Virus record (IMG/VR): IMGVR_UViG_3300045971_000149
Location: 93,926 to 157,925 of that record
From: a virus
Length of the DNA: 64,000 nucleotides
Direction: 5' to 3' (one strand)
The translations under genes were made by a program, and so were the position numbers. Below are positions 33,276 through 49,360 of the stretch, in pieces; position 1 is the first letter of the stretch; each line of letters opens with the position of its first letter. Below the pieces are notes generated by a model. It ran no database searches. It saw only the letters and a list, made by a program, of their open reading frames with translations, and was not told the DNA's origin.

Positions 33276-35597
33276 ATGATTACAGTTGTCAAGCGTAATG
33301 GTAAAAGAGTTCCATTAGACATTAGCAAGATACAGAGACAGGTAGCACATGATTGCAAAGGCATTGACGGAGTTAGTCCGTCAATGATTGAAATTAAAGC
33401 ACAAATAGAATTACATGATGGGATGTCAACTAAGACAATCGACGAACTTTTGCTAAAAGCAATGGTCGACTTAATCGATGAAACAGAAAACCCAGAAATC
33501 AATAATGTAAATTATCAATATGTAGCAGGTAGACAAAAAGTCAGTATGCTACGCAAAGAAGTATACGGAGAATACGATCCTCCTCGATTATACGACATCG
33601 TAACAAAGAATGTAGAACTAGGTATGTATTCTAGTGAATTACTAGATTGGTACACTAAAGAAGAATGGGATATTATTGATCTGTTTCTAGATCATGATAA
33701 AGACGAGAACTATACCTACGCCGCAGTTGCACAGCTTGCTGAAAAATATCTTGTGCAAAACAGAGCAACAGGTCAAATCTACGAAACTCCACAAGTACGT
33801 TATGCTATTGCAGCAGCAACAGCATTCCACAACGAAGCCAGAGATAAGCGATTAAAGTATGTTAAAGATTATTACGAGTGTGCTAGTGACGGCCATTTTA
33901 CCCTTGCCACTCCTGTGCTTGCTGGGCTTGGGACTCCTACTAAACAGTTTAGTAGTTGTGTTCTCATTAGCTCCGACGATACACTGGACTCTATTTTCGC
34001 CTCGGGCGAGATGATGGCAAAGTATGCTAGCAAACGCGCTGGCATCGGATTAGAGATTGGACGTATACGGCCTGTCGGCGCCCCTATTCGAAATGGTGAG
34101 ATCAAACATACAGGCATGATACCATTCTTGAAGAAATGGTTTGCCGATTTGCGGTCTTGCTCACAAGGTGGCATTCGTAATGCATCATGCACAGTAACAT
34201 TTCCCATTTGGCATGCACAGTTTGAAGACCTTATTGTTCTTAAGAATAATCAAGGTACTGAAGAAACCCGTGTACGTCAAATGGATTACAGTGTTGTAAT
34301 CAACAAAATGTTTTGGAATCGTTACAGGAACAAGCAAAATATTACATTGTTTGATCCGCACGAAGTTCCAGACTTGTACGAAGCATATTATCGCAACAGC
34401 GTAGAATTTGAAAAGTTGTATGTACAGTACGAACAAGATGCAACTAAAAAGCGTAAAGTGTTATCTGCTGAAGAAATCTTTAAACAAAGTATTCTTAAGG
34501 AACGTAGCGATACTGGACGCATTTACTTTGTCTTTATTGACAATGTTGTTAATCAAGGCCCGTTTGACTCTAATACTGATCCCATTTACCAAAGTAATTT
34601 ATGCCAGGAAATTTTGTTACCCACAAGACCTTTCCAACGTATCGAAGACCCGGAAGGACGCATTGCGTTATGTACACTAGGATCAATTAACTGGGGTGCA
34701 TTCCGTAACCCACAGGATATGCGTAAAGCCTGCCGTGTATTAGTTCGTAGTTTAAGTAACCTGCTTTCGTATCAAGATTTCTTATCTATTCAAAGTAAGC
34801 TTGCTAACACTGAGTTCGAGCCACTAGGTGTTGGCATCACCAACCTTGCTTACTGGCATGCTCGCCGTAGTTTTAAATATGGAACACCCGAGGCACTTGC
34901 AGAAGTCAAACGTTGGATGGAACATCAAGCATACTATCTAACCGAAACAAGTGTAGAGCTTGCCCAAGAAAAAGGGCCATGCTCGCGTAGCGAATACACT
35001 TGGTACGGCAAGGGAGTATTTCCTTGGGAGCGACGGGCAACCGGTGTTAATGAATTGACAGACTTCACACCTAGCTTAGATTGGGAGCCACTACGTGCTA
35101 ACATGATTAAGTATGGCATTCGTAATGCTACGTTAATGGCAGTCGCACCAGTTGAGTCTAGCAGTGTTGTATTGAACAGTACAAACGGAATTGAAATGCC
35201 AATGGAACTTATTTCTGTTAAGGAATCAAAAGCAGGATCGTTTGTGCAGGTTGTACCAGAATATAGGAAGTACAAAAACCGTTATCAAATGATGTGGGAA
35301 CAAACTGATTGCGTTGAATACTTAAAGACAGCAGCAGTTCTAGCAGCTTATGTTGACCAGAGTTTGAGTACAAATACATTTTACAGTCCAAAACACTTTA
35401 AGGATGGCAAGGTTCCCGGTACACTAATTGCAAAGAATTTAATGCTTGCATATAAATGGGGTTTGAAAACTCTATATTACTCACTTATAGATAAAGTTGG
35501 TTCTAAAAATGTGTTAAACACCCAAACTGATGTATTAGTGGCCGCCACTCCTGTTACACTGTATGAAGATGACGACTGTGAAGCCTGCAAGTTATAA
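33276..35597 (+). CDS. nrdA: Ribonucleotide reductase class Ia, alpha subunit
   Basis: 773 aa. ITVVKRNGKRVPLDISKIQR is the N-terminal ATP-cone start. FSSCVLISSDDTLDSIFASG contains one of the active-site disulfide cysteines; QSNLCQEILLPT holds the catalytic Asn-Cys-Glu; CTLGSINWG the second disulfide Cys; MAVAPVESSSVVLNST follows as usual. The C-terminal EACKL retains the redox C-x-x-C pair (CEAC). It reduces NDPs for phage DNA synthesis with NrdB and glutaredoxin, both encoded nearby. No intein or frame interruption is seen. Confidence 0.96.
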   Translation: MITVVKRNGKRVPLDISKIQRQVAHDCKGIDGVSPSMIEIKAQIELHDGMSTKTIDELLLKAMVDLIDETENPEINNVNYQYVAGRQKVSMLRKEVYGEYDPPRLYDIVTKNVELGMYSSELLDWYTKEEWDIIDLFLDHDKDENYTYAAVAQLAEKYLVQNRATGQIYETPQVRYAIAAATAFHNEARDKRLKYVKDYYECASDGHFTLATPVLAGLGTPTKQFSSCVLISSDDTLDSIFASGEMMAKYASKRAGIGLEIGRIRPVGAPIRNGEIKHTGMIPFLKKWFADLRSCSQGGIRNASCTVTFPIWHAQFEDLIVLKNNQGTEETRVRQMDYSVVINKMFWNRYRNKQNITLFDPHEVPDLYEAYYRNSVEFEKLYVQYEQDATKKRKVLSAEEIFKQSILKERSDTGRIYFVFIDNVVNQGPFDSNTDPIYQSNLCQEILLPTRPFQRIEDPEGRIALCTLGSINWGAFRNPQDMRKACRVLVRSLSNLLSYQDFLSIQSKLANTEFEPLGVGITNLAYWHARRSFKYGTPEALAEVKRWMEHQAYYLTETSVELAQEKGPCSRSEYTWYGKGVFPWERRATGVNELTDFTPSLDWEPLRANMIKYGIRNATLMAVAPVESSSVVLNSTNGIEMPMELISVKESKAGSFVQVVPEYRKYKNRYQMMWEQTDCVEYLKTAAVLAAYVDQSLSTNTFYSPKHFKDGKVPGTLIAKNLMLAYKWGLKTLYYSLIDKVGSKNVLNTQTDVLVAATPVTLYEDDDCEACKL

Positions 35598-35778
35598 CCT
35601 GTGTGCCTGTATGGGCCCAATGTACGGAGAACCGATGTGCCCATGTAAAATGGCAGGTTTGCCACGTAGTGAAGAATATAAAACTTATATGTTACCAGAA
35701 AATGTAGCAGCAAGAGAAGCAGAAATAACTAAGGTCTTTGCAGAAATATTTGCAAGAAGGAAAGAAAAGAATGTCTAA
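35563..35778 (+). CDS. Cys-rich small protein between nrdA and nrdB, 71 aa
   Basis: Overlaps nrdA by 35 bases and nrdB by 8. CACMGPMYGEPMCPCKM has four Cys in a compact zinc-ribbon-like knuckle, followed by a helix. ATG 35563 is the first start; ATG 35611 is also possible. Placement between the RNR subunits suggests a redox or metal role, but this is inference only. Confidence 0.6.
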   Translation: MKMTTVKPASYNLCACMGPMYGEPMCPCKMAGLPRSEEYKTYMLPENVAAREAEITKVFAEIFARRKEKNV

Positions 35779-36871
35779 AGAACAATACGATTTTACTAAA
35801 CAAACAAACTATCTAAAGCGTAAGATGTTTCTGGATCCAGCAGGACCAGTTACGGTACAGCGTTTTGAAGAAGTTAAGTATCCTAAATTACAGAAGTACG
35901 AAGAGCTCGCCCGCGGGTTCTTTTGGGTGCCAGAAGAAATTAGTTTAACTAAAGATAAGATTGATCACAAAGAAGCAAGCGAAGCAGTAAAACATATCTT
36001 TACAAGCAACTTGTTACGTCAAACTGCGTTAGATAGTATTCAAGGCCGCGCACCATTCCAAGTGTTCGGTCCTGTATGCAGTATCCCGGAACTAGAAGCC
36101 CTCACGCTAACATGGAGCTTCTTCGAAACAAGTATCCACAGTAAAAGCTATAGTCACATTATTCGCAATGTGTACGGTGTTCCGAAAGACGAGTTCAATA
36201 AAATACATGAAACGAAAGAAATTGTCGGGATGGCGGCAAGTATTGGCCGCCATTATGAGTCTCTGCACCAATTGAACAGCCGTAAAGAAATCGGCGAAAA
36301 AGTAGACGAATATGAGCATAAAAAGGCGATTTGGATGGCATTAAACGCCAGTTATGCGCTGGAAGCGTTCAGATTTATGGTCTCCTTTGCTACGAGCTTG
36401 GCAATGGTAGAAAACAAGATTTATATAGGAAACGGTAACATTATTAGTCTTATACTCCAAGACGAATTGCTACATACAGAATGGACTGCGTGGCTAATTA
36501 ATAATGTAGGGAAAGATGATTCAGACTTTGAAAAGATTGAAGTAGATTGTGCAGTAGAAGTATATCAGATGTACATGGAAGTGATACAGGAAGAAAAGGA
36601 TTGGGCGGACTACTTATTCAAACTAGGCCCGGTCATTGGACTAAATGCAACTATTCTAAAAGACTTTGTAGACTTTACCGCATTTTCTCGATTAAAAGAT
36701 ATTGGAGTTAAGTATCTTGCAGATCATCCTAAAATGAGTCCTATCCCTTGGTTTAACAAGCATGTAAACATCGGCAAGAAACAGTCGGCGTTACAAGAAA
36801 CAGAATCGACAAACTATGTTATCGGCGTAATGTCTGACACAGTTTTGCACGAGGAATTACCGGAGTTATAA
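35771..36871 (+). CDS. nrdB: Ribonucleotide reductase class Ia, beta subunit
   Basis: 366 aa from ATG 35771. FWVPEEISLTKDKID, DSIQGRAPFQVFGPVCSIPE, SKSYSHIIRNVYG (radical Tyr region), ALEAFRFMVSF and ILQDELLHTEW (E-x-x-H ligands) follow the E. coli NrdB order. One difference: the first ligand helix reads ETSIHSKSY, i.e. E-x-x-x-H instead of the E-x-x-H of E. coli (ETIHSRSY), a one-residue insertion. The subunit supplies the tyrosyl radical for NrdA. Confidence 0.95.
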   Translation: MSKEQYDFTKQTNYLKRKMFLDPAGPVTVQRFEEVKYPKLQKYEELARGFFWVPEEISLTKDKIDHKEASEAVKHIFTSNLLRQTALDSIQGRAPFQVFGPVCSIPELEALTLTWSFFETSIHSKSYSHIIRNVYGVPKDEFNKIHETKEIVGMAASIGRHYESLHQLNSRKEIGEKVDEYEHKKAIWMALNASYALEAFRFMVSFATSLAMVENKIYIGNGNIISLILQDELLHTEWTAWLINNVGKDDSDFEKIEVDCAVEVYQMYMEVIQEEKDWADYLFKLGPVIGLNATILKDFVDFTAFSRLKDIGVKYLADHPKMSPIPWFNKHVNIGKKQSALQETESTNYVIGVMSDTVLHEELPEL

Positions 36872-36873
36872 AA

Positions 36874-37065
36874 ATGTCAAATTGGGTTAAATTTCCTGGA
36901 AATCCGTTGCCTGTACCAGGCCAATGGTATAGTGTCTCTCCAACTGGAAGAGATGTCGATGCAATACGGGGGCAGTTTACTGGTTACCCGGCAGGATTTG
37001 CCCAATTCGTCAATGAATACTATCTCCTAATGTTCCCCGGAACTATTTACTGGAAGGAAATATAA
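36874..37065 (+). CDS. Small hypothetical protein, 63 aa
   Basis: MSNWVKFPGNPLPVPGQWYS, then GRDVDAIRGQFTGYPAGFAQ: Pro/Gly/Trp-rich, probably a compact beta fold. It lies between nrdB and glutaredoxin with gaps of only 1-2 bases. Unknown function. Confidence 0.6.
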   Translation: MSNWVKFPGNPLPVPGQWYSVSPTGRDVDAIRGQFTGYPAGFAQFVNEYYLLMFPGTIYWKEI

Positions 37066-37066
37066 A

Positions 37067-37291
37067 ATGAAACAAGCTATAGTATGGTCAAAGGATGCTT
37101 GCGCACATTGCGAACAGGCTAAAAATTTATTGAAGTCTAAAAATATCGCGTATGAAGAACGTAATATTATGAAAGACTGGACAAAGGCACAACTGCTAGA
37201 GGCTGTTCCCACCGCAAGAGCACTTCCACAAATTTTCCTAGACGGAGAGTATGTTGGCGGGTTCTCTGAATTACGAGCAAAAATAATGTAA
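37067..37291 (+). CDS. grx: Glutaredoxin
   Basis: 74 aa, typical short phage glutaredoxin. VWSKDACAHCEQAKNLLKSK carries the C-x-x-C active site (CAHC); ALPQIFLDGEYVGGFSEL contains the cis-Pro (LP) and the GG(F/Y)xxL glutathione site. It reduces NrdA after each turnover. Position in the nrd operon supports this. Confidence 0.93.
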   Translation: MKQAIVWSKDACAHCEQAKNLLKSKNIAYEERNIMKDWTKAQLLEAVPTARALPQIFLDGEYVGGFSELRAKIM

Positions 37292-37674
37292 TGAACACAG
37301 TAGGAAATATAAATTACGGTACTGTATTGCCAAACACAGTATCAACTGGAACTATAACTATTCCGGCCGCTGGCCTTTCAGCAGCAGGTGCATATTCCTT
37401 TGCTGTGCCTGCATACACAATGAATTACGCTGCAAATCAGATAGGCATTGTAAGTAACAGTGGCCTTAAAGTCACAGGGTCTTCTACATTTGACGGCGAC
37501 GTGACCATACAAGGACGCAGCATCAGTAAGACTCTTGAAACTATAGAGAAGCGATTAGCTATTCTTACGCCCGATCCTAAAAAGTTAGAGAAGTGGGAAG
37601 TATTGCAAAAAGCGTACTCACAGTATAAGATGTTAGAAGCGTTGCTCCATGAGGAAGATAATGGAAACGCCTGA
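37291..37674 (+). CDS. Virion-type protein, 127 aa
   Basis: First half MNTVGNINYGTVLPNTVSTG onwards is a Thr/Gly-rich beta domain like fibre or decoration proteins; second half RLAILTPDPKKLEKWEVLQK then AYSQYKMLEALL is helical and conserved in marine myophages as I recall. It sits oddly inside the RNR/ThyX operon, a location also common in T4-like marine phages. Confidence 0.68.
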   Translation: MNTVGNINYGTVLPNTVSTGTITIPAAGLSAAGAYSFAVPAYTMNYAANQIGIVSNSGLKVTGSSTFDGDVTIQGRSISKTLETIEKRLAILTPDPKKLEKWEVLQKAYSQYKMLEALLHEEDNGNA

Positions 37675-37822
37675 ACAAAAGATTGCTAAACAAGAAAAAG
37701 AAATACAGCAGCTAAAAGCCAGTATACAAAGACTTGAAAAGGCTGTATCATTGTTAGAGCGCGAAAACAATCGCCGTAAGCAAGATATTACACAAATAGC
37801 AAACGTATTAAAAAGAGGGTAA
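37661..37822 (+). CDS. Coiled-coil small protein, 53 aa
   Basis: METPEQKIAKQEKEIQQLKA then SIQRLEKAVSLLERENNRRK: a single uninterrupted coiled coil with a basic end. It overlaps the previous gene by 14 bases and ends one base before thyX. Probably oligomeric; function unknown. Confidence 0.62.
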   Translation: METPEQKIAKQEKEIQQLKASIQRLEKAVSLLERENNRRKQDITQIANVLKRG

Positions 37823-38491
37823 ATGAAAGTAAAATTAATATCTACTAGTAAGCCTAGTAGACACATGTACGACGAAGGTCTCATAGATGCACAAGATTTA
37901 ATCGGGTTTTGTGCAAGAGTAAGTAATCCTAGTAATCAGTTTAACACTGAAACAAGCGAAAAGCTAATACGGTATCTAATCAAGCATCAACACTGGTCCC
38001 CACTAGAGATGGTGTCTGCGTGTATTGAGATCGAAACAACCCGTGATATAGCAAGACAAATACTACGTCATCGTAGCTTTAGCTTTCAAGAGTTTAGCCA
38101 ACGATACGCCGACCCTACAAAGGATCTAGATTTCGTATTGCGGGAAGCAAGATTACAAGATACTAAAAATAGACAAAACAGCATAGAAACGACTGATGCT
38201 GAATTACAAGTATGGTGGGATGCTAAACAGAAATTCTTAATCGATTATGTAAAGGCTACATATGCAGAAGCAATCGAGAAAGGTATTGCTAAAGAACAAG
38301 CCCGATCTATTTTGCCCGAAGGTAATACAGTTAGTCGATTGTATATGAACGGTACACTACGCTCGTGGATTCATTTCATTGAATTGCGTAGCTCAAACGG
38401 TACACAAAAAGAGCACCAAGCGGTTGCTCGAGCGTGTGCACAGGCTATTGTGGAAGTATTCCCAATGGCATCAGAATTTGTAAAGGATTAA
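37823..38491 (+). CDS. thyX: Flavin-dependent thymidylate synthase
   Basis: 222 aa. RHRSFSFQEFSQRY is the ThyX signature RHRxxSxxxxSxR. HWSPLEMVSACIEIETTRDIARQ is the upstream helix with the HxSPLE motif and SILPEGNTVSRLYMNGTLRSWIHFIELR the FAD/dUMP region. It makes dTMP from dUMP using FAD and methylenetetrahydrofolate. Together with nrdAB and glutaredoxin it forms a dNTP supply operon. Confidence 0.95.
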   Translation: MKVKLISTSKPSRHMYDEGLIDAQDLIGFCARVSNPSNQFNTETSEKLIRYLIKHQHWSPLEMVSACIEIETTRDIARQILRHRSFSFQEFSQRYADPTKDLDFVLREARLQDTKNRQNSIETTDAELQVWWDAKQKFLIDYVKATYAEAIEKGIAKEQARSILPEGNTVSRLYMNGTLRSWIHFIELRSSNGTQKEHQAVARACAQAIVEVFPMASEFVKD

Positions 38492-38492
38492 A

Positions 38493-38783
38493 ATGCTTAT
38501 CACTAAAGGCGCCTCAATTGGCGAAGTTGTAACTATGAAGTTAGTTACAGGAGAAGAAATCATCGGCAAGCTAGCAACAGAGACAGATACACATTACGGT
38601 ATCGCTCGTCCCCTTACGCTAGTAGCAGGACCTAAGGGACTAGGATTGCAACCGTGGTTGTTCACAGTAGACACAGAGAAGACAATCAAGTTCCCAAAGG
38701 ATAAAGTTATCATCATCGATTCTACCATGAAAGAAATGGCAGATAGCTATCTTACTGGTACAACTGGCATTGCACTGAGTTAA
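38493..38783 (+). CDS. Sm-like (LSm-type) phage protein, 96 aa
   Basis: GEVVTMKLVTGEEIIGKLA then YGIARPLTLVAGPKGLGLQP. The pattern VTMKLVTGEEIIG(K/R) followed by (I/L)xRP is that of small phage proteins with an Sm-like beta barrel, conserved in T4-like marine phages. They may bind RNA, but this is unproven. C-terminus MADSYLTGTTGIALS. Confidence 0.7.
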   Translation: MLITKGASIGEVVTMKLVTGEEIIGKLATETDTHYGIARPLTLVAGPKGLGLQPWLFTVDTEKTIKFPKDKVIIIDSTMKEMADSYLTGTTGIALS

Positions 38784-38786
38784 ATA
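38780..38786 (+). promoter_or_regulatory. Late-type element, leaderless arrangement
   Basis: TTAAATA ends six bases before ATG 38792. Confidence 0.4.
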
Positions 38787-38791
38787 GTTTT

Positions 38792-39238
38792 ATGATTACG
38801 CCGGCAGCGAACACCACTAATTTTTATTCTGCGTTCTCTGTTGGCATACTAGTAACTAATACAAGTAGTGGAACAACTATAGTTTCGGCTCCTGTTGTAT
38901 CGGCAAGTTTTGTTGACCCCGGCATTGTAATTACGTCTGATATCTCTGGATTAGTTACAATATCGGGAATGTATAAAACTATTATCCCAATCGGGTACAC
39001 ATGGCGCGACAATAGTTTTAATCTAAAAACTGGAACAACTGCTCCAAATGCAGGTGAGTATCAAAAGTTTATAAAGATTGATTCTCCAGCTAGTACATCT
39101 GCAGATTGCACATACACAATTACTACAGCATACGATTCGGGCACAATAACTGATACATATGTTGACCACGTAATCGTTGATAGCTTCACTAAAGTTGCCG
39201 ATATACTAACTGGATTATTAGCAGGAGTAAAACCGTGA
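38792..39238 (+). CDS. Virion protein, 148 aa (upstream of PAAR)
   Basis: Thr/Ser/Val-rich with immunoglobulin-like strands (MYKTIIPIGYTWRDNSFNLK, TSADCTYTITTAYDSGTITD). It overlaps the PAAR gene start by four bases, so it is probably a baseplate or spike-associated protein. No named family. Confidence 0.68.
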   Translation: MITPAANTTNFYSAFSVGILVTNTSSGTTIVSAPVVSASFVDPGIVITSDISGLVTISGMYKTIIPIGYTWRDNSFNLKTGTTAPNAGEYQKFIKIDSPASTSADCTYTITTAYDSGTITDTYVDHVIVDSFTKVADILTGLLAGVKP

Positions 39239-39540
39239 GTTCACAACCAATAGCAAGAATAGGCGATAAAACAACAGGGCATGGACCGTACCTCCCAAGA
39301 CCGAGTACAGGTGGAAGTAGTGATGTGTTTGTAAACGGAATTGCAGTAAGCAGGGTAGGTGATGATTGGGCACCACACGGAGGAATTCCTCCTGATGTTC
39401 ATTCCGGAGAAGTGGGGGAAACAGTTTCGGGTTCTGGTACAGTATTTGTCAATGGCAAACCGCTAGCAAGGATCGGAGACACAGTAGACGGTGCTGATAA
39501 GATCGCAGGCGGCAGTTCTGATGTATTTGCCGGTGGTTAA
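39235..39540 (+). CDS. PAAR-domain spike-tip protein
   Basis: 101 aa, GTG start. IARIGDKTTGHGPYLPRPST, VFVNGIAVSRVGDDWAPHGG, GSGTVFVNGKPLARIGDTVD: two P/A-x-A/S-R blocks, conserved His residues for metal binding and VFVNGxxxxRxGD repeats. PAAR proteins cap the central spike of T4-like baseplates (gp5.4) and sharpen it for membrane piercing. Confidence 0.9.
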   Translation: MSSQPIARIGDKTTGHGPYLPRPSTGGSSDVFVNGIAVSRVGDDWAPHGGIPPDVHSGEVGETVSGSGTVFVNGKPLARIGDTVDGADKIAGGSSDVFAGG

Positions 39541-39652: not shown

Positions 39653-39681
39653 TTGACAACATTCCTAGATTGTTGTAAAAT
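39653..39681 (+). promoter_or_regulatory. Promoter for csp and probably the tmRNA
   Basis: TTGACA, 17 bases, TAAAAT (39676-39681). No other promoter is evident before the tmRNA acceptor piece. Confidence 0.75.
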
Positions 39682-39708: not shown

Positions 39709-39912
39709 ATGGCAACAGGTAAAGTAAAATGGTTTAGCGCCCCTAAGGGTTTCGGGTTCATTACCCCTGATAACGGTGGAGCAGACTTGTTTGCACACTT
39801 CAGTCAAATTAACTCGCAAGGATATAAGAGCCTAGACGAAGGTCAAGCAGTAACTTTTGAAGTTACGCAAGGCCAAAAGGGTCCTCAGGCTAGCAATATT
39901 CAGTTAGTCTAA
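39709..39912 (+). CDS. csp: Cold-shock (CspA-type) RNA-binding protein
   Basis: 67 aa. [20 protein letters not shown] includes RNP1 (KGFGFI); [20 protein letters not shown] includes RNP2 (LFAHF); the end [16 protein letters not shown] is canonical. It binds single-stranded nucleic acid and melts RNA secondary structure. The gene ends only a few bases before the tmRNA acceptor piece, so both are likely on one transcript. Confidence 0.95.
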
Positions 39913-39917
39913 AAGGT

Positions 39918-39982
39918 TATTGCTGTACGAAGCAAATAGAAATAAGTGGAACACCCGGGGGCAGTGCCCGGCATCTCCACCA
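39918..39982 (+). ncRNA. ssrA: tmRNA, acceptor piece (3' half) of a circularly permuted gene
   Basis: The piece ends CATCTCC-A-CCA (39972-39982). Before it is a T arm CCGGG / CCCGG (39955-39959 with 39967-39971) closing the 7-base loop GGCAGTG. The acceptor strand CATCTCC pairs with GGGGATG at 40086-40092 (seven pairs, one G-U). TGCTGT (39921-39926) pairs with ACAGCA at 40128-40133, and CGAAG (39928-39932) with CTTCG at 40105-40109, nested as in helix P2. The GGCAGT type of T loop is one I remember from alphaproteobacterial two-piece tmRNAs. The 5' boundary is approximate. Confidence 0.88.
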
Positions 39983-39993
39983 TAAGGGAAGTT

Positions 39994-40158
39994 ATGAAAC
40001 ATTTAGAATGGTATCAGATATTGCTGTGTCTTGCAGTTCCGATAAACTATTTTTATTGGTGTGTATTACATAGTTTCTTTATGATGGGGATGACACAGGA
40101 TCGACTTCGCAAAGAGTACATAAGCAGACAGCACGACACAGATAGTCGTAAAAAGTAA
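39994..40158 (+). CDS. Possible small membrane protein overlapping the permuted tmRNA, 54 aa
   Basis: ATG 39994 follows AAGGGAAG with good spacing. MKHLEWYQILLCLAVPINYF then YWCVLHSFFMMGM is hydrophobic enough for one or two membrane helices; the tail is charged (RLRKEYISRQHDTDSRKK). The frame covers the tmRNA intervening segment and runs into the first 73 bases of the coding piece. It could be real or a by-product of constrained sequence. Confidence 0.4.
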   Translation: MKHLEWYQILLCLAVPINYFYWCVLHSFFMMGMTQDRLRKEYISRQHDTDSRKK

Positions 40159-40240
40159 AACAAAAACAACCGCAAACGATTCAGTTTACGCATTAGCAGC
40201 TTAACAGCCGCTTAGGGTAGTTATACCTCGTAACAGAAAC
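40086..40240 (+). ncRNA. ssrA: tmRNA, coding piece with tag ANDSVYALAA
   Basis: Starts GGGGATG-ACACAGGATCGAC, matching the conserved tmRNA 5' end (GGGGCTG...GGATTCGAC in E. coli). The tag reading frame is 40172-40204: GCA AAC GAT TCA GTT TAC GCA TTA GCA GCT TAA, giving ANDSVYALAA. It is followed by CAGCCGCTTAGGG, like the E. coli region after the tag stop. Because the CCA half lies upstream, the gene is permuted and the intervening 103 bases (39983-40085) must be cut out. The 3' end is approximate. Confidence 0.9.
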
Positions 40241-40248
40241 TAACAAGG

Positions 40249-40269
40249 ACCCGCTTCGGCGGGTTTCTT
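40249..40269 (+). terminator. Terminator of the csp-tmRNA transcript
   Basis: ACCCGC-TTCG-GCGGGT with a T-rich tail (TTTCTT). Confidence 0.88.
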
Positions 40270-40304: not shown

Positions 40305-40448
40305 ATGGAAGAAAAGCGAGGAAAACGAATCGAAAAATGGGTAAAACGATACCATTATCGCCTGGAATTGTTAAGATCTGTTGCTCCTGTTGTCGTTATC
40401 ACTTTACAATGCATTATACTGTATCATGTTTACTTTGTGAAGAATTAA
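40305..40448 (+). CDS. Small single-pass membrane protein, 47 aa
   Basis: Start preceded by AAGGAG. A basic N-terminus (KRGKRIEKWVKRYHYR) is followed by one membrane helix SVAPVVVITLQCIILYHVYF. Such tiny proteins can be phage inner-membrane effectors. No family is known. Confidence 0.62.
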   Translation: MEEKRGKRIEKWVKRYHYRLELLRSVAPVVVITLQCIILYHVYFVKN

Positions 40449-40767: not shown

Positions 40768-41145
40768 ATGAAAATATACGAGCTATTTGAAGATATAACT
40801 CAACCTGAATTAGATCATGTTGAACAAGTTGCCGATGCTTTGTGGGCAAAGTTGGGAATTGATGTTGAGTTTACTAGACATTTTTTTGATCGTGTAAATG
40901 ACGAAAGAAACGGAAAACCTATTACAGCAGATGAGCTAGTAGCAATGTTTCAGAAAGAGTTTCGAACAAACGGTATTCAGATTTCTAATATGCGTCGCCC
41001 GGAAGCAGTATTAAAAGATTTATTGTCTAGCATCAATATCCCGTTTGTGTTAAAGAACACCGGTGGCCAGAAACAGTTAGTAGGTAAAACAGTTATGCGT
41101 AAACGTAACTTTACAAGTCCTGACCCGGCGTATGTAGTAAAATGA
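40768..41145 (+). CDS. Hypothetical protein, 125 aa
   Basis: MKIYELFEDITQPELDHVEQ then VEFTRHFFDRVNDERNGKPI. FTRHFFDRVNDERN followed by LVAMFQKEF resembles small phage proteins with an FxxHFxxR(V/I)NxR pattern, similar to RelE/cytotoxic-nuclease-like folds seen in virion-associated proteins. I cannot confirm activity. The stop overlaps the next ATG (ATGA). Confidence 0.62.
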   Translation: MKIYELFEDITQPELDHVEQVADALWAKLGIDVEFTRHFFDRVNDERNGKPITADELVAMFQKEFRTNGIQISNMRRPEAVLKDLLSSINIPFVLKNTGGQKQLVGKTVMRKRNFTSPDPAYVVK

Positions 41146-42503
41146 GATTCAACGACCTTACTAAATCAAAAGCACCTGTAAAACTGTCTTACACAGAAAG
41201 TTTACAGCGCAAGCTCAACAAGTGTTTAGACAATTTCCCATCCACAAAATTTACTCCGCTCGAAATTGCAATAATGGAAGGTGGCGGTTCTTTAACAGAA
41301 TTCCAACTTACGAAAAATCAGTGGGAACTGTTTATATCAAATGCAGACAAGGAAGAAGCAGGTTCTGACTTAATCGGGTTGGTGCAAAATGCATACGGCG
41401 GCACATCACAAGGTAGCTTTGTGAATAGCATGAAAGATGTTATTCCGTCAGACTGGAATGTAATTGATTGGGATCACGATCCGGATGTAGACGCAGCCGT
41501 TTTCTATCGCAAAAACAGAGCAGGCGAAAGTTGGAGTGGACATAAAATCCAAGGATTAGGGCACGATGGTACACGCACGAGTAAAGACAAAGCAATCGGC
41601 AAGGTACAAGCTTTGTTAAGCAAGCCCGGAGTATGGATTGAAAGTAGCGATGCAATGCGCTCGATCCTAAAAAAGTACAATGTGCAAGCAGTAACTGATG
41701 TTGAGTTATTGCGTTCGTTGTTTAACGATCCAAATTTAGAAATGGTAGATGCCGACACATATACTCGAACAATCGGATCTGGACAAATTACCGAAACTGT
41801 ATTTGGCAACCCGCATCTAACTGCATCGTTAAAAGAAACTACAATTAATGAGTTTGAGAACGGTACAGATAATAGTAAACAAATATTACAAAAATTAAAA
41901 GCAATGGGCTACACTATGTTAGGTAGTGGAGTTGATGCAACGGTATGGACTAAAGAAGAAGGGCACGTTATTAAAATTTTAATGCCGACAGCACCTAATC
42001 AAGGCGGTCGAGACCGTGCAGATCTAAACTTTCTAACTTTCTATAATTTTTGTCAACAGAACAAAGGCAATCCAAATCTTCCCATATTCACGGAAATTAA
42101 TGGGGCCGGACATTCAACATTTGAAATAAATGGGTCGCCGTATAGACAAATTGCAATGGAACGATTGCACCCAATTAGTTCTGGGTTTGCCGAACACATG
42201 GTTTGGCAATTGGGAGAACTAACAAAAGTCGCTTTTATTAAATGGAAAGATGTAGTTAAACAGTTACTAAATCCAGCGTCGTGGAATGCATTAGGTATGC
42301 AAGCAACAAAAGAAATGCCAGGTCATATTAAATATGAAATAGATAATGATCCTGCATTTACAAAACAATGGAGCGGACTATTTGCAACAATGCAAGGCTT
42401 ATACGCAGCAGGTAAGAAAGCAGGCGTAGAATGGGATATGCATACTGACAATGTAATGGAACGAAATAACGGCACAATTGTAATAACTGACCCGTTTATT
42501 TGA
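41142..42503 (+). CDS. Two-domain protein with C-terminal protein-kinase-like fold, 453 aa
   Basis: N-terminal part (1-220): EIAIMEGGGSLTEFQLTKNQ, then WDHDPDVDAAVFYRKNRAGE and IQGLGHDGTRTSKDKAIGKV. The C-terminal domain from residue 245 reads YTMLGSGVDATVWTKEEGHVIKIL (glycine-rich loop and VIK lysine), then IAMERLHPI (hinge-like), then VEWDMHTDNVMERNNGTIVITDPF (catalytic D with HTDN, and a DPF metal-binding motif like DFG). That is the kinase/APH order. It could phosphorylate host or virion proteins. Substrate unknown. Confidence 0.7.
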   Translation: MRFNDLTKSKAPVKLSYTESLQRKLNKCLDNFPSTKFTPLEIAIMEGGGSLTEFQLTKNQWELFISNADKEEAGSDLIGLVQNAYGGTSQGSFVNSMKDVIPSDWNVIDWDHDPDVDAAVFYRKNRAGESWSGHKIQGLGHDGTRTSKDKAIGKVQALLSKPGVWIESSDAMRSILKKYNVQAVTDVELLRSLFNDPNLEMVDADTYTRTIGSGQITETVFGNPHLTASLKETTINEFENGTDNSKQILQKLKAMGYTMLGSGVDATVWTKEEGHVIKILMPTAPNQGGRDRADLNFLTFYNFCQQNKGNPNLPIFTEINGAGHSTFEINGSPYRQIAMERLHPISSGFAEHMVWQLGELTKVAFIKWKDVVKQLLNPASWNALGMQATKEMPGHIKYEIDNDPAFTKQWSGLFATMQGLYAAGKKAGVEWDMHTDNVMERNNGTIVITDPFI

Positions 42504-49284: not shown

Positions 49285-49360
49285 GCGGTATTAGCTCAGT
49301 GGTTAGAGCGTGGACTTCTAAACTCCCGGGTCGAGAGTTCGATTCTCTCATATCGCACCA
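49285..49360 (+). tRNA. tRNA-Arg (anticodon UCU)
   Basis: 76 bases. The acceptor stem GCGGTAT pairs with ATATCGC (one G-U); the D arm has AGCTCAGTGGTTAGAGC; the anticodon loop CTTCTAA gives UCU; the T arm GAGAG-TTCGATT-CTCTC is perfect; CCA is encoded. It decodes AGA/AGG, codons used often by this AT-rich phage. Confidence 0.95.

Follow-up and report, generated by a model that had tools for sequence, protein, structure and literature searches.

The permuted tmRNA gene of a large phage carries a conserved small-protein gene in its intervening sequence (IVS), and different small-protein genes occupy the same site in many related environmental phages. These two observations are what is new here. 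No report of ORFs inside a permuted-tmRNA IVS was found in open-licence PMC full texts, and 'not reported' should therefore be taken to mean only that none was found in those texts. The window analysed comprises 64,000 nucleotides (bases 93926–157925 of the 157,925-base IMG/VR virus record IMGVR_UViG_3300045971_000149). The initial annotation of this DNA recognised the tmRNA and overlooked its main feature, the protein-coding IVS.

A canonical permuted tmRNA

The permuted tmRNA covariance model (RF04321, tmRNA_permuted) matches the window at 39921–40204 on the + strand, as do all tmRNA features below, with 96 bits against a gathering threshold of 47 (E 2.3e-17). The alpha_tmRNA model (RF01849) matches 39868–40247 with 70.5 bits (gathering threshold 50), and the beta_tmRNA model (RF01850) gives a sub-gathering match of 65.6 bits at low threshold (gathering 84). 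The acceptor (tRNA-like 3′) piece, placed by the RF04321 alignment at 39921–39982, lies upstream of the coding piece and ends in an encoded ACCA (39979–39982). It contains a T arm, CCGGG-GGCAGTG-CCCGG (39955–39971), with an alpha-type T loop and five of five T-stem pairs, followed by the 3′ strand of the acceptor stem, CATCTCC (39972–39978), which pairs at all seven positions with GGGGATG (40086–40092). One of these pairs is the G3·U70 wobble, an identity element for alanyl-tRNA synthetase (AlaRS). The mRNA-like (coding) piece starts with the same GGGGATG and spans 40086–40247, its 3′ end being approximate (the RF04321 match reaches 40204 and the RF01849 match 40247). From the RF04321 alignment and the sequence, its tag reading frame encodes ANDSVYALAA followed by TAA (40172–40204), and the two pieces are separated by a 103-nt IVS (39983–40085) that is presumed to be removed on maturation. 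Among relatives, the 5′ strand of the acceptor stem changes (GGGGATG, GGGCCGG, GGGCCTG) and the stem is kept. Judged by its sequence and predicted pairing, this is a real, canonical two-piece tmRNA.

These results bear out the core of the initial annotation, which had proposed a phage-encoded permuted tmRNA with a seven-base-pair acceptor stem, a T arm, a CCA end and the tag ANDSVYALAA ending in a stop. Of the programs it had suggested as checks, Infernal placed RF04321 and RF01849 above and RF01850 below gathering, and ARAGORN, run on the window, missed the tmRNA. The 103-nt IVS may have contributed to that miss. Two further claims fared less well. The T loop GGCAGTG had been taken as a departure from the usual form. 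This does not hold for the alpha lineage, where RF01849 has the consensus GGCGGUA and GGCAGTG is a close variant of it; nor is the loop odd, because GGCAGTG or GGCAGTA recurs in other phage loci. Permuted tmRNAs had also been assigned to alphaproteobacteria, some betaproteobacteria and some cyanobacteria. The one on this phage has precedents. Melnitz carries a two-piece tmRNA, and 53 two-piece tmRNAs are described among INPHARED phage genomes (PMC9004378); a merged model, RF04321, and 79 bacteriophage tmRNAs have been described (PMC11915505); and the alpha-type T-arm pattern has at least 120 matches in IMG/VR. Phage-borne permuted tmRNAs are thus already known. Nucleotide-level searches of INPHARED, using the window and three relatives as queries, did not turn up an annotated phage with this tmRNA.

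Capture from an alphaproteobacterial, betaproteobacterial or cyanobacterial host, as first suggested, is plausible. However, the window tmRNA is a mosaic, and no single donor can therefore be named: the T arm is of alpha type, the internal stem and tag region are beta-like, the beta_tmRNA model also gives it 65.6 bits, and it shares a 32-nt stretch with the beta-type phage tmRNA at locus L129.

A conserved microprotein gene in the intervening sequence

The IVS ORF (39994–40158, + strand) encodes a 54-aa microprotein with a single transmembrane (TM) segment, beginning MKHLEWYQILLCLAVPINYFYWCVLHSFFMM, whose hydropathy is 2.2 over 17 residues. Its ATG at 39994 stands behind a Shine-Dalgarno sequence, TAAGGGA, that directly follows the CCA. 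The conserved core of the ORF (39994–40083) lies within the IVS and its stop in the mRNA-like piece.

Homologous IVS ORFs occur in the permuted tmRNAs of loci L123/L124, L125–L127, L128, L134, L161, L167, and L189, and a W/Y/LAVP/NYxYW core is kept across the eight distinct IVS ORFs (window plus seven). In the IVS frame, these eight sequences give a pooled pN of 0.113 and pS of 0.424 (ratio 0.27), whereas the two alternative frames have pN/pS ratios of 0.59 and 2.24; differences by codon position number 85/19/131. This pattern of substitution indicates that the window-family ORF is under protein-level purifying selection, and it is presumably translated. All eight frames cross the mature 5′ end of the coding piece with no in-frame stop in the IVS, stopping at +10, +31 or +70 past the cut site.

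Homologues of the microprotein also occur as stand-alone genes (MIDVLEILLWLAVPINYIYWIFIHN) in other phages, and an Rfam scan of five such loci detected no tmRNA. One of the stand-alone genes, in L150, precedes an endolysin gene by about 0.9 kb, a proximity that hints at a role for the microprotein in lysis or at the membrane but does not test it. We also observe that this ORF (L150, 9974–10117) and the stand-alone relatives in L138–L156 overlap the next gene, out of frame, in the tail-to-endolysin region. The window microprotein has no match in PHROG, tblastn against INPHARED returned chance hits or none, and a genome-contig search for the microprotein returned none.

A stem joins the ends of the intervening sequence

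The 5′ strand of a predicted IVS end stem, TAAGGGAA (39983–39990, + strand), contains the Shine-Dalgarno sequence of the ORF and pairs with the 3′ strand, TTTCTTTA (40074–40081, + strand), in the minimum free energy (MFE) fold of the window precursor. Across IVSs, the pairing starts at the first base after the CCA and stops just short of a terminal TGAT, with a mean run of 10.0 bp versus 4.8 bp when the ends of different IVSs are combined. Over 45 cargo-bearing IVSs, 423 of 450 pairs are standard. Several stem positions show two-sided changes (T-A/A-T/G-C at pair 1; A-T/T-A/G-C/C-G at pair 7). This covariation, together with the MFE fold, indicates that the two ends of the IVS are held together by the stem, with the Shine-Dalgarno sequence buried inside it, a position that could hinder translation. 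The TGAT element itself (40082–40085 in the window, + strand) sits beside the mature 5′ end. Its TGA is the stop codon of the ORF in 28 of the 45 cargo IVSs and is out of frame in the window; since the window-family frame misses it, the ORF runs into the mRNA-like piece.

Varied cargo genes across viral permuted tmRNAs

A search for CCA-TAAGG-ATG found 46 contigs, mostly permuted tmRNAs with differing IVS ORFs. Since such a pattern favours ORFs, we also drew samples blind to the IVS, using the T-arm pattern (at least 120 IMG/VR matches) and a coding-piece pattern. Among the matches listed, these blind samples contain 20 unique IVSs that are 130 nt or longer, and 17 of them are filled by one ORF starting within 20 nt of the CCA, the same picture as in the part of the viral sample found through the Shine-Dalgarno-ATG pattern. 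The whole collection, again among the matches listed, has 26 of 29 IVSs of at least 130 nt filled by an ORF versus 0.7 expected when the middle of each IVS is shuffled and both ends are kept. Between 70 and 100 nt, 10 ORFs were observed versus 5.3 expected among the matches listed, an excess over chance so small that individual ORFs in short IVSs are uncertain. Infernal detects a permuted tmRNA in every cargo-bearing record tested, 46 in total (11 of 11 and 34 of 34 virus records, plus the window), and in the 11 and 34 virus records the length of the match is sufficient to include the cargo. Some of the IMG/VR contigs are fragments.

Among the matches listed, clustering places 63 unique IVSs with cargo in about 42 families; 15 have a TM-like stretch, and a few of the cargo ORFs are probably chance. 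Several encode recognisable proteins, with Pfam matches to thioredoxin (L192, E 1.4e-20), DUF2061 (L164, E 3.5e-20) and PGDYG (L163, E 3.4e-6). Pairs of related cargo genes show low dN relative to dS: 0.14 and 1.38 for L164/L171, 0.08 and 1.11 for L178/L197, and 0.05 and 0.66 for L067/L080. L164 and L182 share an identical 77-nt acceptor piece and encode different cargo proteins, which points to replacement of cargo within one tmRNA gene. A stand-alone relative of the DUF2061 cargo is present in MW202753, where the surrounding annotation contains no tmRNA.

Sampled bacterial tmRNAs and a cultured-phage tmRNA lack cargo

Permuted tmRNAs of bacteria have short, cargo-free spacers in the samples drawn. 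The IVSs of 23 resolved loci span 4–49 nt and carry no cargo; longer entries in this list were left out because their acceptor pieces had been wrongly assigned, in genomes that have other tmRNAs. A class-wide control in Gammaproteobacteria proved mostly non-permuted, and a phylum-wide draw was used instead. Here, 28 of 29 IVSs are 5–57 nt and one is 115 nt, and none of the 29 contains a cargo ORF. Rare bacterial cargo is possible, the bacterial sample being of modest size. The 115-nt IVS (L470, from bacterial genome G254), likewise without a cargo ORF, contains a tRNA-like stretch (CCCGTAGCTTAAGCGTAGGGGGACTGGTGAGCC). In chromosomal and plasmid copies of the Cupriavidus tmRNA, the IVS is 32 nt long and built like the phage spacers (GAAGC...GCTTC-TGAT), and the frame that holds the cargo ORF therefore predates the cargo. 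As a separate observation, Cupriavidus pinatubonensis HN-2 (the genome of L366, G001) has five permuted tmRNA genes above cut-off, spread over its chromosomes and plasmid. In cultured Pelagibacter phage HTVC008M, the IVS forms a cargo-free hairpin of about 49 nt.

Genomic neighbourhood

The tmRNA is preceded by a CspA-like cold-shock protein gene (67 aa, 39709–39912, + strand; phrog_729, E 8e-22), which ends 8 nt before the tmRNA match. Upstream of both lies a candidate sigma70-like promoter, TTGACA-17-TAAAAT (39653–39681, + strand), identified as a consensus match only (11 of 12 positions), and cspA and the tmRNA are probably co-transcribed. A terminator-like hairpin, ACCCGC-TTCG-GCGGGT, followed by TTCTT, is read from the sequence at 40249–40264 on the + strand; the terminator scan lists this hairpin on the − strand only. 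Just downstream, a second small ORF (40305–40448, 47 aa, MEEKRGKRIEKWVKRYHYRLELLRSVAPVVVITLQCIILYHVYFVKN) has GGAG upstream and a TM-like stretch, and finds no match in PHROG.

Further away, 33276–39540 is a run of nucleotide-metabolism genes for the large and small subunits of ribonucleotide reductase and thymidylate synthase, then a PAAR protein. At 41142–42503, a protein of 453 aa is encoded whose C-terminal part matches the T7-type protein kinase family (phrog_15752, E 1e-10). A tRNA at 49285–49360 is of ambiguous identity: ARAGORN reads the anticodon as CTA ('Pyl'), and an Rfam alignment points to UCU in the loop, with mismatches at two pairs of the anticodon stem. The CTA reading raised the question of amber recoding, which we rejected; treating TAG as sense leaves ORF coverage essentially flat (0.843 to 0.851), and TGA and TAA raise it more.

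A model for dual output from one precursor

We consider it highly probable that the window contains a canonical permuted tmRNA whose IVS doubles as a protein-coding cassette, operating as follows. A single transcript from the cspA promoter would carry both tmRNA pieces and the IVS, and its fold would be built around the tRNA-like domain and the IVS stem. As in tRNA-type processing, RNase P would generate the GGGG 5′ end, and another cut would fall at the CCA end. The two mature pieces would then pair, be charged with alanine and rescue stalled ribosomes during infection. We propose that they do so with host SmpB because no SmpB gene was found on the contig. The mRNA of the small protein may be the precursor, the excised IVS, or both. 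The ancestral IVS hairpin would have been pre-adapted to this use, its purine-rich 5′ strand supplying a Shine-Dalgarno sequence and its 3′ TGAT a stop codon, such that in most cargo families the message would retain its stop after excision.

The window family departs from this last feature. Its frame passes the cut site, and cutting would therefore create a stop-less message, making a self-tagging loop possible. On such a self-limiting scheme, the ORF becomes non-stop after the RNase P cut and the same tmRNA adds ANDSVYALAA to its product, which is then degraded and accumulates only when rescue capacity is exhausted, much as for ArfA. The passage of all eight frames beyond the mature 5′ end without an IVS stop and the seemingly unconstrained, variable tail past the cut site fit this scheme, and ArfA is a precedent (PMC10107115). 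However, most other cargo families stop inside the IVS, so that a non-stop design is not general, and in several window-family members the stop at +10 would let uncut precursor yield a defined product. We regard this circuit as unlikely. Equally tentative, and in our judgement improbable, is the broader idea that the excised spacer acts as an expression cassette coupling RNA processing, rescue and small-protein expression, in which the window microprotein, tagged by its own tmRNA, reports the loss of trans-translation during infection.

Could the locus instead be an ordinary phage permuted tmRNA whose IVS ORF is a functionless, chance open frame? The IVS is just 103 nt long, the conserved IVS stem shares bases with the first and last codons of the ORF, AT-rich DNA often yields TM-like translations, and some short phage IVSs do hold chance ORFs. 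Nevertheless, the same protein recurs in eight distinct IVSs with synonymous-biased change, and the codon statistics contradict the chance reading. Stand-alone homologous genes exist elsewhere, recognisable thioredoxin, DUF2061 and PGDYG cargo occupies the same slot, and long IVSs are nearly always fully open. We thus find a chance frame very hard to credit. Least credible is a decayed or decoy tmRNA that merely sequesters SmpB or AlaRS while its IVS drifts freely: phage DS6A does encode a tmRNA-like RNA that lacks a CDS and inhibits the tmRNA of its host (PMC11915505), but the window tmRNA retains an intact 7-bp acceptor stem with G3·U70, as well as the T arm, the ACCA and a complete tag whose last residues are ALAA, and relatives maintain the acceptor stem through sequence change.

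The spacers of permuted tmRNAs are usually regarded as discarded sequence. If many phage tmRNAs carry protein genes in their spacers, then one locus and one precursor would yield both a ribosome-rescue RNA and a protein, a simple model for coding and non-coding functions on one transcript in which the Shine-Dalgarno sequence of the ORF sits inside a precursor stem. The spacer would also be a new site for phage cargo genes and would account for the long phage spacers that may defeat gene finders. Small ORFs within an RNA gene are easily missed in annotation.

Comparison with known systems

Among known systems, those nearest to the window locus include the permuted tmRNAs of alphaproteobacteria, betaproteobacteria and cyanobacteria (RF04321, RF01849, RF01850), which share the permuted order, the G3·U70 stem, the T arm, ACCA and the tag frame. 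The tmRNAs of Cupriavidus and Azoarcus likewise have a short IVS hairpin ending in TGAT or TGGT. Whereas the sampled bacterial IVSs span 4–57 nt (with one of 115 nt) and are cargo-free, the 103-nt IVS of the window holds a conserved protein gene. Melnitz and HTVC008M also have phage-borne permuted tmRNAs; the HTVC008M spacer differs in being a cargo-free hairpin, and no description of an IVS ORF was found for Melnitz in PMC9004378. The non-stop mRNA feedback of E. coli ArfA is a possible analogue of the stop-less window ORF, although ArfA is a soluble rescue factor encoded elsewhere and the likeness implies no sequence relation.

Two further systems place an extra gene within a removable segment of a tmRNA gene. 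Some tmRNA genes are interrupted by group I introns, certain of which contain homing-endonuclease genes (PMC11915505). There, the protein gene lies in a self-splicing intron in the T loop and encodes a mobile endonuclease, whereas here the segment is the IVS, there is no intron, and the small cargo is varied. Similarly, one MAG has a permuted tmRNA with a tRNA-Ala gene inside its IVS (PMC11915505), a single instance of RNA cargo at the site that, in many phages, holds protein cargo.
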